A stretch of 64,000 nucleotides of DNA, taken from assembly GCA_958295935.1 (NCBI GenBank), contig OY282385.1, forward strand, positions 1,550,001 through 1,614,000. Reading direction: 5' to 3'. The position numbers and the translations under genes were made by a program. The first letter of the stretch is position 1; every line of letters begins with the position of its first letter. Below are positions 38,323 through 56,970 of this stretch, one piece after another. The notes below the pieces were generated by a model. It saw only the letters and a program-made list of their open reading frames with translations. It had not been told where the DNA came from and made no database searches. The DNA comes from an uncultured Dehalococcoidia bacterium. Lineage in GTDB: Bacteria > Chloroflexota > Dehalococcoidia > Lucifugimonadales > Lucifugimonadaceae.

Positions 38323-39351
38323 CTAGCCGAAATGCTCCTTCCAACAGGGGCGGCAGAAAGGCTTGGCGTAGGTCGTACTCTTTTTCTTGCCGCATCCATG
38401 GCAGTACTTTTCCTTGTACTCCGGATTCTTGAACTTGTTCCATGATTTGTAATGTTCGTCACATAGGGGCTTCTCATCATCAAAATCTATTGATTCGCCG
38501 CACCGCACACAGTAAGCACTGACCAAATAATCGCTGTTGCACTCATCACAGAAGGGTTCGGCGTAGGTCGTACTCTTTTTCTTGCCGCACCTATGGCAGT
38601 ACTTTTCCTTGTAATCGGGATTTTTGAACTTGTTCCACGACTTGTAATGCTCATCACATAGAGGCTTCTCAGTATTAAAGTCAATCGAATCGCCGCACCG
38701 CACACAGTAAGCTTCGCCCGAAGTTGCCTTGCCGCGGTTCGTCTTTGCTGTTCTCTGCCCAGTTCCGCCTGTAGTATATCTTGAGCGTCTTTCACGCACG
38801 ACCTTAGGCGCATCCACTTCTGGTTCCGAAGTCGTTGTGTTATTGATCCGCCGTACTCTAACGGCATGCTGACTAAGATCTTCAACATAATCATGAATGT
38901 CCTTGTGCAATTTTTCTTCTTCTATAGATATACATATTTCGCGCGAGCCTTTGGCAGAGCCTTCAAGCAAGTTCATGGAAGTTATCAGTACCTGAGTTTC
39001 ATTCATGTAAATCTTGGCGTGCAGATCCTCGACAGCATACACGGAAGCACCTTGATTCATAAGCCAATCGATGTTTTCATCGCGCTTACCCTCCCGGTAA
39101 AACATGGTGACTTTAACACCCTGCTTGACCGCGTTTTCTAGAGCAATACTGAAGTGTCCCCACGACATGAATTTGTTATAGGGAGATACCAGAATAACCC
39201 ATTTCCCGGCGTTTCTCAGTATGTCCAACACAGCAGACGAAATCTGGCCGTCCGTAAATATTCGTACAGACTCGCGATCTACTGCATCCTTACGTCGGCC
39301 TATTCCTACAATTCGGCTCAGGCCCACGGACAGGCCGCTCTCTGATGGCAA
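38323..39351 (-). CDS. Phospholipase D-like domain protein with two tandem zinc-ribbon repeats
   Basis: The N-terminal PLD-like domain (about 25-165) has one HKD-type motif, DLHAKIY with His111 and Lys113, and SMNLLEGS with Asn127. A single motif suggests a dimeric nuclease or lipase of the Nuc/BfiI kind. Two repeats of about 64 residues follow (214-278 and 279-342). Each has CVRCG, LCDEHYKSW, YCHxCGKKK and FC-x2-C, giving four CxxC-type knuckles in all. The repeats are also near-identical in DNA, implying recent duplication. The gene is AT-richer than its surroundings, so transfer is likely. TTG start at 39351 with AAAGGA 8-10 nt upstream. Confidence 0.82.
   Translation of the reverse strand: MPSESGLSVGLSRIVGIGRRKDAVDRESVRIFTDGQISSAVLDILRNAGKWVILVSPYNKFMSWGHFSIALENAVKQGVKVTMFYREGKRDENIDWLMNQGASVYAVEDLHAKIYMNETQVLITSMNLLEGSAKGSREICISIEEEKLHKDIHDYVEDLSQHAVRVRRINNTTTSEPEVDAPKVVRERRSRYTTGGTGQRTAKTNRGKATSGEAYCVRCGDSIDFNTEKPLCDEHYKSWNKFKNPDYKEKYCHRCGKKKSTTYAEPFCDECNSDYLVSAYCVRCGESIDFDDEKPLCDEHYKSWNKFKNPEYKEKYCHGCGKKKSTTYAKPFCRPCWKEHFG
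38326..38712 (-). repeat. Internal tandem repeat (two units of about 193 bp) encoding zinc ribbons
   Basis: 38518-38712 and 38326-38517 encode the two zinc-ribbon units of the PLD-like protein. They share long near-identical stretches, such as those encoding EHYKSWNKFKNP and EKYCH-CGKKKSTTYA. Confidence 0.85.
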
Positions 39352-53053: not shown

Positions 53054-54241
53054 TCAGCCGACCATCCAACCAGGGTCGCTCAGCCGTCGCACGACGGAAC
53101 TCAGAAACGCCGCGGCGGGAGCCCCGTCCCACGCGCGGTGATCGAAGGTGAGACTCAGATGGCCGATGGAACGAGCCTGCACCTCGCCGTCGATTATCGA
53201 GGGACGATCCTCCACCTTCCCCAACCCCAGGATGCCCACCTCCGGGGGGTTCAGCAAAGGATCGAAGTGCTCCACGTCGTAAGCCCCGAGATTGGTAATC
53301 GTAAAGGTGCCGCCGGTCATCTCCTCGGCCCCCAGAGAACGGCTCTTTGCCTTGCGCGCCAACTGCCGCACCTCCTGCGCCAGCTCCAGCAAGGACATAC
53401 CGTCCGCATTGCGTATCACAGGCACCACCAACCCCTCAGGTATCGCCACGGCCACCCCGAGGTTCACCTCGTCCAGCACGCGCACCTCCTCCCCAACGAG
53501 ATGGGCGTTCGCAATAGGAGTCTCCACGAGCGCGGCCGCAACCGCGGCCAGAGCCAGATCCTGGTACTGAGGCCTGAGCCGATGAGGACGCCACACCGGC
53601 GTCAGACGCCTCTGCAATTCCACCGCGGCGGTCACGTCCGCATGCGTGTTCAGCGTCACGGTAGGCGCTTGGGAACTCTCTGCCATACGTTTGGCAATGG
53701 CCCCGCGCAGGCCGATCAGCGGAATTGTCTCCCGAACAGGCACAGTCGACGGTCCCGCCGCAGCGCTCTCGGCAGCCCGCCTTACGTCGTCCTCGGTGAC
53801 CCGCCCGCTTGGACCGGTTCCCTCGACGGCCCCCAGGTCAACCCCCAATTCATTCGCCAGGCGGCGCGCTCGAGGAGTAATAACCTGTCTGCGCCCGCCG
53901 GATGGCCGCGACCGGGCCCCGAGGGATGGAGTCGGCGTAGGTCTCGCCTGAGGACCGGACGCAACAGGCGCCTCGATAGATTCAAGAACAGAAGGATCCT
54001 CGCCGGGCGAAAGCATTACGGCGAGGCGTGAACCTACCGGCACCTCCACACCCTCGCTCACCAGTATCTTCCCAAGCAGGCCGTCCGCAGGAGCCTCGAC
54101 CTCGCTGTTCACCTTCGCCGATTCGATCTCCACTAGCGGGTCGCCTTTTGTGACCTCGTCGCCCTCGCTCTTAAGCCACTTGACGACTTGGCCCTCGTTC
54201 ATACCCATGCCCCACTGGGGCAACAGAACGTCAGTTGGCAT
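53054..54241 (-). CDS. acoC: Dihydrolipoamide acyltransferase (E2) of an acetoin dehydrogenase-like complex
   Basis: A 395-residue E2. The lipoyl domain (1-78) has the modified Lys43 in IESAKVNSEVEAP. A Pro-rich linker follows at 85-115. The E1/E3-binding domain (about 118-155) reads ITPRARRLANELGVD and GPSGRVTEDDV. The catalytic domain has His368 and Asp372 in FDHRAWDG. It takes the acyl group from E1 to CoA. AcoX next door and split alpha/beta E1 genes upstream favour acetoin over pyruvate or branched-chain acids. Its ribosome site GAGGTAAG overlaps the fic stop, 9 nt upstream, so fic is now directly upstream in the transcript. Confidence 0.88.
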   Translation of the reverse strand: MPTDVLLPQWGMGMNEGQVVKWLKSEGDEVTKGDPLVEIESAKVNSEVEAPADGLLGKILVSEGVEVPVGSRLAVMLSPGEDPSVLESIEAPVASGPQARPTPTPSLGARSRPSGGRRQVITPRARRLANELGVDLGAVEGTGPSGRVTEDDVRRAAESAAAGPSTVPVRETIPLIGLRGAIAKRMAESSQAPTVTLNTHADVTAAVELQRRLTPVWRPHRLRPQYQDLALAAVAAALVETPIANAHLVGEEVRVLDEVNLGVAVAIPEGLVVPVIRNADGMSLLELAQEVRQLARKAKSRSLGAEEMTGGTFTITNLGAYDVEHFDPLLNPPEVGILGLGKVEDRPSIIDGEVQARSIGHLSLTFDHRAWDGAPAAAFLSSVVRRLSDPGWMVG

Positions 54242-54250
54242 GTTCTTACC

Positions 54251-55483
54251 TCAAGTCCAGGGGGGAGAACCACCTCCACCCCTCGCTGGCTCCAACGTGG
54301 CACCGTCGACCACAGAGTATATGTCCTGGGCAGGGGGCGCGTTAATTATGCGGCTCACCTCAGCGGCAAAGTAGACTCGGTTGCGCTTCCGATTGCCAAT
54401 CTCCCGAAGAATATCCGCGTCCACAAGAGTCTGTATCACCGTGCGGGCGGTCTGCGAAGTGACTTTGTACTTGTTAGCCACGCGGCGAGACAGGACGACA
54501 GGCAACTCGAACACGTCGTCCACCAGCTGCTGCGCAATGCTGGAACGCGTCAGTCCAAGTACCGCGTCGCGGTACCTCTCGCGCAGGTCAACAAGCTTTT
54601 GGGCGCGTTCCGCCCCCTCCCGCGACTCCGCGATCACCGCGCGCAGGAAGAAATCGACCCAGCCCTGCCAGTCTCCCCTGGCGCTCACCGCGTAGAGCGA
54701 GTCCACGTACCCCGATCGCGCCCGTTCAAACTGAGCGCTGAGGCTCATGACCGGAACGTCGAGCATCCCCCAGTGACGGAGAAGTATAGGCATGAGCAGC
54801 CTCCCCACCCGCCCGTTGCCGTCGGTAAATGGATGGATCGTCTCAAACTGGTAGTGGATGAGAGCCAGCTCGATAAGACGAGGCCACCCGCCTGAAGGAC
54901 GGTTGATGTACGCCTCCAGGTCGTTCATCAGAGTCTGCACCTCGCCCGGAGGCGGGGGTACGAAACGCGCCTCAGACGGCTGTCTACCGCTCCCGGCAAT
55001 GTAGTTCTGAACCTTGCGATATTCACCCAGACCATGCTCGCCCCCGCGGACACCGCCGAGTAGCCGTTCGTGCAACTCCCAAATCAACCTGTGACATGGG
55101 GCTATGTCGCCCAGCCTGTCCAGCCCATGTTGCAAGGCCGTGACGTAATTAAGCACTTCCTGCGTGTCTGGAGCGGCTGACCTGTCCCTTGGGTCGGCCT
55201 CGAACAAGACGAGCTGGTCGAAAGACGTTACGGTCCCCTCGATCCTGCTGGATAGCACCGCTTCACGGCGGATGAACGGGTTAGCCAGCAATCCGGGGTT
55301 CGGCAGCTGCCGTATTGAGCCTCTCAAGTCGCCCATCATCTGGTCCGCCGTCGACTGGAGCCGCAAGGTCGATCTGTCCAACTCTATGTCCGGCGGCAGC
55401 GGGTCGGGAATGTAGGCCCAGCCCGCTTTAGCGACCGCAACGAGCCGCCCCGGGGCTTCAGATGTAAATTGGGATGGCTCCAT
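54251..55483 (-). CDS. Fic-domain protein, class II, inserted between acoB and acoC
   Basis: A 410-residue protein. The N-terminal Fic_N-type region has the inhibitory motif S78-SRI-E82-G83. The core motif HPFTDGNGRVGR is at 217-228. The C-terminal 90 residues are winged-helix-like (SRRVANKYKVTSQTARTVIQTLVDADILREIGN), followed by a YFAAEV strand. It probably AMPylates a protein using ATP, held back by Glu82; the DNA-binding tail suggests self-control. It lies between two aco genes that normally adjoin. Its upstream region carries a 71-bp repeat array with six identical dyads, the nearest overlapping its promoter. ATG 55483. No antitoxin gene. Confidence 0.88.
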   Translation of the reverse strand: MEPSQFTSEAPGRLVAVAKAGWAYIPDPLPPDIELDRSTLRLQSTADQMMGDLRGSIRQLPNPGLLANPFIRREAVLSSRIEGTVTSFDQLVLFEADPRDRSAAPDTQEVLNYVTALQHGLDRLGDIAPCHRLIWELHERLLGGVRGGEHGLGEYRKVQNYIAGSGRQPSEARFVPPPPGEVQTLMNDLEAYINRPSGGWPRLIELALIHYQFETIHPFTDGNGRVGRLLMPILLRHWGMLDVPVMSLSAQFERARSGYVDSLYAVSARGDWQGWVDFFLRAVIAESREGAERAQKLVDLRERYRDAVLGLTRSSIAQQLVDDVFELPVVLSRRVANKYKVTSQTARTVIQTLVDADILREIGNRKRNRVYFAAEVSRIINAPPAQDIYSVVDGATLEPARGGGGSPPWT

Positions 55484-55515
55484 AGAACCGCTGTCCGATG
55501 CGCTAGGTCCGCGAG

Positions 55516-55950
55516 TTTCCTTGTCTTAGAGTAATTATAAACAAGTAAAACCCATGTTTGCTTGCCTATCCAGCCAGATGAACAAGTTCCCTTGCCTTAG
55601 CAGAGCCATAGACAAGCAAATCCACGGTTTGCTTGCCTATCCAACCAGATGAACAAGTTTCCCTGCCCTAGCAGAGCCATAAACAAGCAAATCCACGGTT
55701 TGCTTGCCTATCCAGCCAGATGAGCAAGTTCCCTTGCCCTAGCAGAGCCATAAACAAGCAAATCCACGGTTTGCTTGCCTATCCAACCAGATGAACAAGT
55801 TCCCTTGCCTTAGCAGAGCCATAAACAAGCAAATCCACGGTTTGCTTGCCTATCCAACCAGATGAACAAGTTCCCTTGCCTTAGCAGAGCCATAAACAAG
55901 CAAATCCACGGTTTGCTTGCCTATCCAACCAGATGAACAAGTTCCCTTGC
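55516..55950. repeat. 71-bp tandem repeat array (five full units plus partial ends)
   Basis: Full units start at 55557, 55628, 55699, 55770 and 55841, with a final partial unit at 55912-55950 and a degenerate half unit at 55516-55556. Units differ by only a few bases. Each boundary carries a 23-bp dyad, CAAGCAAA-N7-TTTGCTTG, at 55613, 55684, 55755, 55826 and 55897, with a variant at 55542-55564. A second short dyad-like element CAAGTTCCCTTG sits mid-unit. The array fills the gap between acoB and fic. It is not CRISPR because there are no unique spacers. Confidence 0.95.
55534..55564 (-). promoter_or_regulatory. Probable fic promoter overlapped by the proximal dyad
   Basis: On the minus strand TATAAT (55539-55534) lies about 50 nt before the fic ATG. 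Directly upstream is the variant dyad CAAGTAAA-N7-TTTGCTTG (55542-55564), which covers the -35 area. A protein bound to the dyad would block or recruit polymerase. No good -35 hexamer is seen, consistent with regulation. Confidence 0.5.
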
Positions 55951-56004: not shown

Positions 56005-56970
56005 CTAATCCAGAGTCTCGCGCACGGCCTCTACGATCTTGTCCTTGGTCGGGTATACCAGCTTTTCGAGGGCCGGCGTGTAGGGAATGTGCACTTGCTC
56101 CGAGGCGACCTTGACCACGGGAGCCTGAAGCGACCAAAAACCCTCCTGAGCCACAATCGACGCGATCTCGCTGGCAGCGCTGCATACCTTATGCGCAGGG
56201 TCTACGCACACGAGCCGACCGGTCTTCTCCACGGAATCGAGGATGGTCTGCTTGTCCAGAGGCACCATAGTCCGGGGATCTATCACCTCCACGGAAACGC
56301 CCTCGGCCACCAGCTCCTCCGCCGCGTTCATCGCCATGGACACCGACCCCGCAATGGCCACGACGGTGCAGTCCTCCCCTTGTCTAAGCACGTTCGCCTT
56401 GCCGAACTCAACCAGGCGGTCGCCGTCAGGCACCTCGCCGCGCGAGCCGGCCAATGTGCCGTCCTCGAACACGATGCAAGGGTCGTCGTCCCGTATGGCC
56501 GTCTTGAGAAGGCCCTTCACGTCCGCAGGGCTGGAGGGCACGATGATCTTCAGGCCCGGCATGTTCATGAACATAGGGTACGAGCGGTCCGAGTGGTGAG
56601 CCGCAGACCCGCCCCCGTAGAACATCGTAGCCCGGTACACCACCGGAAGCCTTGCCTGACCGCCGAACATGTAGCGCATCTTGGCCGCTTGGCTGATCAG
56701 CTGGTCCATGCCAACCCACATAAAACTCGTCAGCGTCTCCACGATGGGCCTCATGCCCACCAGCGAGGCCCCGATGGCCGCACCGAAGAAACCGTTTTCG
56801 GAAAGGGGAGTGTCGATTACACGCTTCTCCCCAAACTCCTCCAACAGATTGGCCGTGGCACCGTACACCGACCGACGTATGTCCTCGCCCATGATGAACA
56901 CCGACTCGTCGCGGCGCATCTCTTCGATGATGGCTTGGTTAATGGCCTCGCCAAATATGGTCTGTGCCAA
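56005..56970 (-). CDS. acoB: Thiamine-dependent dehydrogenase E1 beta subunit (acetoin dehydrogenase-like)
   Basis: A 321-residue E1 beta. It begins GEAINQAIIEEMRRDESVFIMGEDI and continues with LEEFGEKRVIDTPLSENGFFGAAIGASLVGMRP, TMFYGGGSAAHHSDRSY, IIVPSSPADVKGLL and IDPRTMVPLDKQTI, all standard for the transketolase-like beta chain of 2-oxo acid or acetoin dehydrogenases. It pairs with AcoA, encoded 87 nt upstream. Downstream, where acoC is expected, there is the repeat array and fic. The AHHSD segment is common in the acetoin and pyruvate types. Confidence 0.9.
   Translation of the reverse strand: MAQTIFGEAINQAIIEEMRRDESVFIMGEDIRRSVYGATANLLEEFGEKRVIDTPLSENGFFGAAIGASLVGMRPIVETLTSFMWVGMDQLISQAAKMRYMFGGQARLPVVYRATMFYGGGSAAHHSDRSYPMFMNMPGLKIIVPSSPADVKGLLKTAIRDDDPCIVFEDGTLAGSRGEVPDGDRLVEFGKANVLRQGEDCTVVAIAGSVSMAMNAAEELVAEGVSVEVIDPRTMVPLDKQTILDSVEKTGRLVCVDPAHKVCSAASEIASIVAQEGFWSLQAPVVKVASEQVHIPYTPALEKLVYPTKDKIVEAVRETLD

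Follow-up and report, generated by a model that had tools for sequence, protein, structure and literature searches.

That SoFic-type proteins carry a winged-helix tail is an old observation. Iteron arrays such as parC/ParR are composed of regular tandem sites that are cooperatively bound by the product of the adjacent gene and function in partition or replication, whereas the locus analyzed here is chromosomal and lies beside a defence gene. In operators of the Phd-Doc type, the DNA is bound by a separate antitoxin, unlike the self-binding by a Fic protein that is proposed below. The operators of Phd-Doc and other type II toxin-antitoxin systems are palindromic, like the sites described here, and are associated with autoregulation of a Fic-fold toxin (PMC2686095), and helix-turn-helix (HTH) domains fused to Fic were suggested by Kinch et al. 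in 2009 to regulate fic (PMC2686095).

The closest experimentally described case is CccR of Yersinia pseudotuberculosis, a class II Fic protein that carries its HTH at the C terminus. As a dimer, it represses its own promoter by binding a palindrome there, with both footprint and autorepression proven (PMC9755527). It has in common with the Fic protein of this locus the class II organization, the N-terminal S..EG inhibitory motif, and the C-terminal HTH, but is distant in sequence and has a DUF4172 N-terminus. Its operator is a single 46-nt site, AGATAATCAT-N26-ATGATAATCT, with half-sites far apart and no tandem phased array reported (PMC9755527). At the locus described here an inverted repeat likewise lies near the candidate fic promoter, although its half-sites are separated by N7 (or, counted as CAAG-N15-CTTG, by 15 bp) rather than by the ~26 bp of CccR.

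Closer still in family, fold, and domain order is the anti-phage toxin SoFic (Shewanella oneidensis structures 3eqx and 3zcn; the PADLOC SoFic family; E. coli Sofic, PMC12249575). DNA binding by SoFic was undemonstrated as of 2023 (PMC10628234), and the E. coli study treats Sofic toxicity and the C-terminal domain without mention of repeats, palindromes, or transcription (PMC12249575). SoFic operators are not described. Tandem or phased Fic operators were not found in a search of the openly accessible journal literature. An equivalent of AS1, the antitoxin gene downstream of Sofic, was considered for the present locus and rejected as there is no space for it between fic and acoC.

A tandem array of inverted repeats between acoB and fic

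The window (the whole stretch of DNA analyzed, 64,000 nucleotides) carries, in minus-strand order, acoA, acoB, the array, fic, acoC, and an NAD-kinase-like gene (acoX), all neighbors being on the same strand. The array thus occupies the acoB-fic intergenic DNA, upstream of fic. Its features and those around it are as follows.

53054-54241, minus strand: acoC-like gene (E2), starting 9 bp past the fic stop (profile match)
54251-55483, minus strand: fic, SoFic-family AMPylase with HPFTDGNGR motif and class II inhibitory SSRIEG (Pfam Fic_N and Fic; PADLOC SoFic, E=6.6e-108)
54344-54541, minus strand: predicted C-terminal winged helix of Fic (residues 315-380), proposed array binder (AlphaFold2; Foldseek)
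55512-55950, no strand: proposed operator array, 5.8 copies of the 71-bp unit together with a degenerate half copy (sequence and TRF)
55512-55523, no strand: small dyad, degenerate extra copy (sequence)
55534-55539, minus strand: TATAAT, candidate -10 of fic without a -35 match (sequence and promoter scan)
55537-55569, no strand: large dyad copy 1, nearest fic and most diverged, 33 bp with outer arms (core 55542-55564, one mismatch)
55608-55640, no strand: large dyad copy 2 (core 55613-55635, exact)
55679-55711, no strand: large dyad copy 3 (core 55684-55706, exact)
55750-55782, no strand: large dyad copy 4 (core 55755-55777, exact)
55821-55853, no strand: large dyad copy 5 (core 55826-55848, exact)
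55892-55924, no strand: large dyad copy 6 (core 55897-55919, exact)
55583-55594, no strand: small dyad CAAG-TTCC-CTTG, first of six (sequence)
55654-55665 (mutated), 55725-55736, 55796-55807, 55867-55878, and 55938-55949, no strand: small dyads 2 to 6 (sequence)
56005-56970, minus strand: acoB-like gene (PDH/acetoin E1 beta), 5' of the array (profile matches)

The preliminary description of this DNA had reported six nearly identical 23-bp dyads at 71-bp spacing, and these were recovered independently: TRF returned a single array, 55537-55950, with a period of 71 bp, 5.8 copies, and 94% match, in which five copies match the 23-bp core CAAGCAAA-N7-TTTGCTTG exactly and the sixth, closest to fic, departs from it at one position. 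Shuffled windows contain a mean of 0.10 matches to this dyad and none reaches six. A degenerate half copy, CGAGTTTCCTTG, prolongs the array on the fic side at 55512-55523, placing the start close to the 55516 given earlier. Inclusion of the outer arms brings the large dyad to 33 bp, ATAGGCAAGCAAA-N7-TTTGCTTGTTTAT, with 1-3 mismatched pairs. The three fic-distal copies are identical across their shared length, and the copy nearest fic is the most diverged.

Each 71-bp unit holds two dyads, a large one (CAAG-N15-CTTG) and a small one (CAAG-N4-CTTG). The CAAG half-sites fall at 55542, 55583, 55613, 55654, and so on to 55938, in a strict 41/30-bp alternation that runs through 12 sites without exception. 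As read from these positions, 18 bp separate each intact CTTG from the CAAG that follows, and the dyad interiors of 15 and 4 bp differ by one helical turn. The dyad nearest fic had also been described as overlapping a TATAAT box; this holds for the outer arm, which the box (55539-55534 on the fic strand) touches, but the 23-bp core is clear of it, and a promoter scan upstream of fic returned no sigma-70 promoter and no acceptable -35.

Genomic context of the array

The gyrB/acoA-acoB-acoC-acoX order is conserved in relatives, several of which have only 20-46 bp between acoB and acoC while others hold different genes there, including a haloacid-dehalogenase (HAD)-like ORF assigned by eye. The content of this gyrB-proximal junction varies across the compared loci (L200-L217), which are empty there or carry the HAD-like ORF or several genes. 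Because the junction varies in this way, fic looks like a local insertion, with which the array would have come or arisen. Comparison with 59 relatives returned only chance-level matches to the array DNA, of 16-32 bases. The dnaA gene lies ~8 kb from the array; an 81-aa DnaA-like ORF, considered as a fragment, proved to be the end of full-length dnaA, and GC-skew sampling of the genome gave no clear placement of the origin.

Within the 2.75-Mb single-contig genome the 71-bp unit is confined to one locus, and the dyad is approached at only four other places, each with three mismatches and together fewer than for a reversed-pattern control. Recurrence as a generic intergenic repeat, which had been named as the outcome that would count against a link to fic, was therefore not what the genome search found. 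A REP or other dispersed intergenic repeat is rejected by this single location, and a CRISPR array by conservation of the entire 71-bp unit without variable spacers.

Several other repetitive regions came to light in the course of the survey. One (L143, genome positions 1700925-1714626) is a very large and unusually long CRISPR-like region in which the repeat GGTCTATCCCCGCGCGTGCGGGGGAGCC returns every 61 bp for more than 13 kb. Another (L139 9783-19992, genome about 1309783-1319992) contains long 273-bp tandem repeats, one run having ~21 copies, and is probably a gene for a giant repetitive surface protein. A third (L146, genome 2150001-2170000) combines extreme GC skew (-0.33) with many short tandem repeats. 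In the window itself, 38354-38712 holds 1.8 copies of a 195-bp unit with 87% match.

The Fic protein and its predicted winged helix

The protein encoded downstream of the array is, on sequence evidence, an AMPylase of the SoFic (anti-phage defence) family. Its HPFTDGNGR and SSRIEG agree with the Fic consensus HPFx[D/N]GNGR and the class II inhibitory consensus (S/T)xxxE(G/N), respectively. The PADLOC SoFic profile covers residues 22-380; the NCBIfam SoFic equivalog also matches, at 159 bits against a cut-off of 550. No second Fic_N gene was found in the genome. A C-terminal winged helix is confidently predicted: in the AlphaFold2 model (mean pLDDT 92.6) the recognition helix corresponds to residues 343-355, and Foldseek aligns the protein over its full length with SoFic 3zcn and 3eqx (TM 0.78/0.87 for 3zcn).

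Dyads and helical phasing upstream of fic in other lineages

Homologous fic loci were gathered from named genomes, relatives, and viral contigs (262 loci, 245 with non-redundant upstream DNA) and compared with 400 control genes taken from the same stretches and from this genome. Strong dyads, defined by a score of at least 10 within -150 to +30, occur at 83 of the 245 fic loci (34%) and at 15 of the 400 control genes (3.75%; Fisher p=5e-25), and in 0.7% of dinucleotide shuffles. Their median center lies at -59. A clear dyad is nevertheless present in just 34-43% of fic loci, and the locus described here scores 6 in this survey, below the threshold. As the dyad sequences vary from lineage to lineage, it is the kind of site rather than its sequence that is conserved. 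One control array (c224, in L111) sits directly downstream of a fic gene and is itself a 40-bp dyad array, so that the control set is slightly contaminated in the conservative direction. This array, 3.2 copies at about 7070-7160 of L111, lies just 3' of that fic gene and ahead of the next one, which may also be under Fic control.

Spacing provides a second pattern. Taking the best direct-repeat lag (score at least 12) in the 250 bp upstream, lags at fic loci cluster at 30-31, 40-42, 50-52, 69-73, 81-84, and 92 bp, and a period of 10.5 bp fits them best (z=37, n=107); the highest z reached in controls is 7.4. The window fits the tandem spacing set of 30/31, 40-42, 50-52, and 69-73 bp through its 41/30 alternation and 71-bp period. 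None of the 107 repeat-bearing loci (among 245 surveyed) has a lag of 53-68 bp, even though a lag of 61 bp would fit the phase. Loci up to L307 gave the first sign of the periodicity, and loci L308-L397 were held out and tested against the discovery phase; phasing was confirmed by the V-test (p=1.1e-7, or 4.4e-6 without proteins more than 70% identical; controls p=0.1). De-duplication at 60% Fic identity leaves 36 loci and a marginal result, and at 50% leaves 19 loci and a result that is not significant, the weakness being due to the few loci that remain. Greedy clustering was used here, as single-linkage clustering chained the Fic proteins into 24 clusters, too few loci for the phasing test.

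The particular geometry of the window also recurs. Among the other loci with a lag of 69-73 bp, 16 of 20 have a 30/31 or 40/41 sub-lag (random lag sets: mean 4.2, maximum 10), and the 41+30=71 arrangement is thus common to loci of unrelated sequence. Arrays of at least three copies lie upstream of fic in L331, L325, L339, L118, L033, L081, L031, L100, and L275, and the present array is among the longest in the compared set.

Which protein may bind the array

The dyad of this array, searched for as AGCAAA-N4..10-TTTGCT, is found at one of 261 other fic loci (L319, as AGCAAA-N6-TTTGCT) and at none of 618 controls. The winged helix of L319 is the most similar to that of the Fic protein studied here (48%, rank 1 of 236), with a Fic-domain identity of 46%, and a second AGCAAAC can be read 31 bp upstream of the L319 dyad. 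For pairs of proteins at 55-70% Fic-domain identity, a shared recognition helix is accompanied by closer dyads (0.615 vs 0.429, p=8e-6, an optimistic value as the pairs overlap and are not independent). Over all pairs, a partial Mantel test relating recognition helices to dyads gives a weak association (r=0.11), the Fic domain gives a similar signal, and distant pairs show no recognition helix-dyad association. Taken from sequence comparison, these results favor Fic itself, though not decisively, as the binder of the array.

Competing explanations

The proposal that the array is an operator bound by the winged-helix tail of Fic, already put forward in the preliminary description, draws comparative support from the dyad enrichment, the held-out phasing, the L319 match, and the precedent of CccR. 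We assign a probability of roughly 0.75 to the reading in which amplification has produced a helically phased set of operator sites through which the SoFic-family protein encoded downstream regulates its own gene. Points against it are the degeneracy of the promoter-proximal copy, the sub-threshold dyad score of this locus, the negative promoter scan, and the weak association in the Mantel test.

A possible but doubtful alternative is that an ancestral single dyad is the Fic operator and that its growth to six copies reflects neutral replication slippage with no added function. Identical distal copies would be expected from recent duplication, and six other non-coding tandem arrays with a period of at least 30 bp occur in the 864 kb surveyed. 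However, none of those six has a dyad score of at least 8, and many lineages have phased multi-site arrays in front of fic, with the held-out loci confirming the phasing.

It is rather unlikely that the array acts primarily as a decoy or store that titrates Fic, or that DNA binding controls AMPylation, in place of promoter repression. The sites outnumber the needs of simple repression, DNA binding is reported to stimulate the Fic enzyme CbFic2 (PMC10628234), and the C-terminal domain of Sofic governs toxicity (PMC12249575). Set against these observations are the placement of the sites at the promoter region and the plain autorepression by CccR (PMC9755527).

The transcribed hairpins that had been suggested as an alternative, here considered as elements for processing, attenuation, or stability in a read-through acoAB-fic-acoC transcript, are very improbable. 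All the genes run in the same direction, minus-strand RNA folding of the array beats shuffles (z=-4.2), and the small dyad would form CAAG-GGAA-CUUG with a GNRA loop; yet good folding is expected of any dyad repeat, and copy 1 has a broken pair (C-A) in the transcribed strand. Moreover, a 10.5-bp helical phase is a property of double-stranded DNA, dyads also occur at fic genes outside aco operons, and an Rfam search of the array gave no match at the gathering score, with sub-threshold matches only. Sites for another regulator, or replication/partition iterons as the nearby dnaA and gyrB might suggest, have very little probability, since relatives with conserved gyrB-aco synteny lack the array, whose architecture tracks fic across phyla rather than gyrB or dnaA.

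A proposed mechanism and its implications

Under the operator reading, Fic dimers would use the C-terminal winged helix to bind the CAAG...CTTG dyads. As the sites repeat near whole helical turns (30/41 bp, summing to 71), neighboring dimers would stand in a fixed angular relation, an arrangement that could favor cooperative contacts spreading over ~440 bp to the fic promoter region. The outcome would be a steep, low-leak autorepression of a toxic AMPylase. The acoC-like gene would come under the fic promoter, and repression would probably extend to the downstream acoC-acoX. The array itself may have originated by tandem duplication of an ancestral phased operator. A further suggestion, that cooperative rows of phased SoFic-family dimers on their own operator arrays also hold AMPylation in check, release from the DNA upon phage takeover then both derepressing and activating the toxin, is speculative and on balance improbable.

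Autoregulation by a Fic protein is a known kind of control; the helically phased multi-site architecture appears to be new to the openly accessible literature. The comparative data provide predicted operators specific to each lineage together with a general spacing rule that is directly testable, and they suggest that an anti-phage toxin which is widespread and encoded by a single gene is controlled by multi-site autoregulation.
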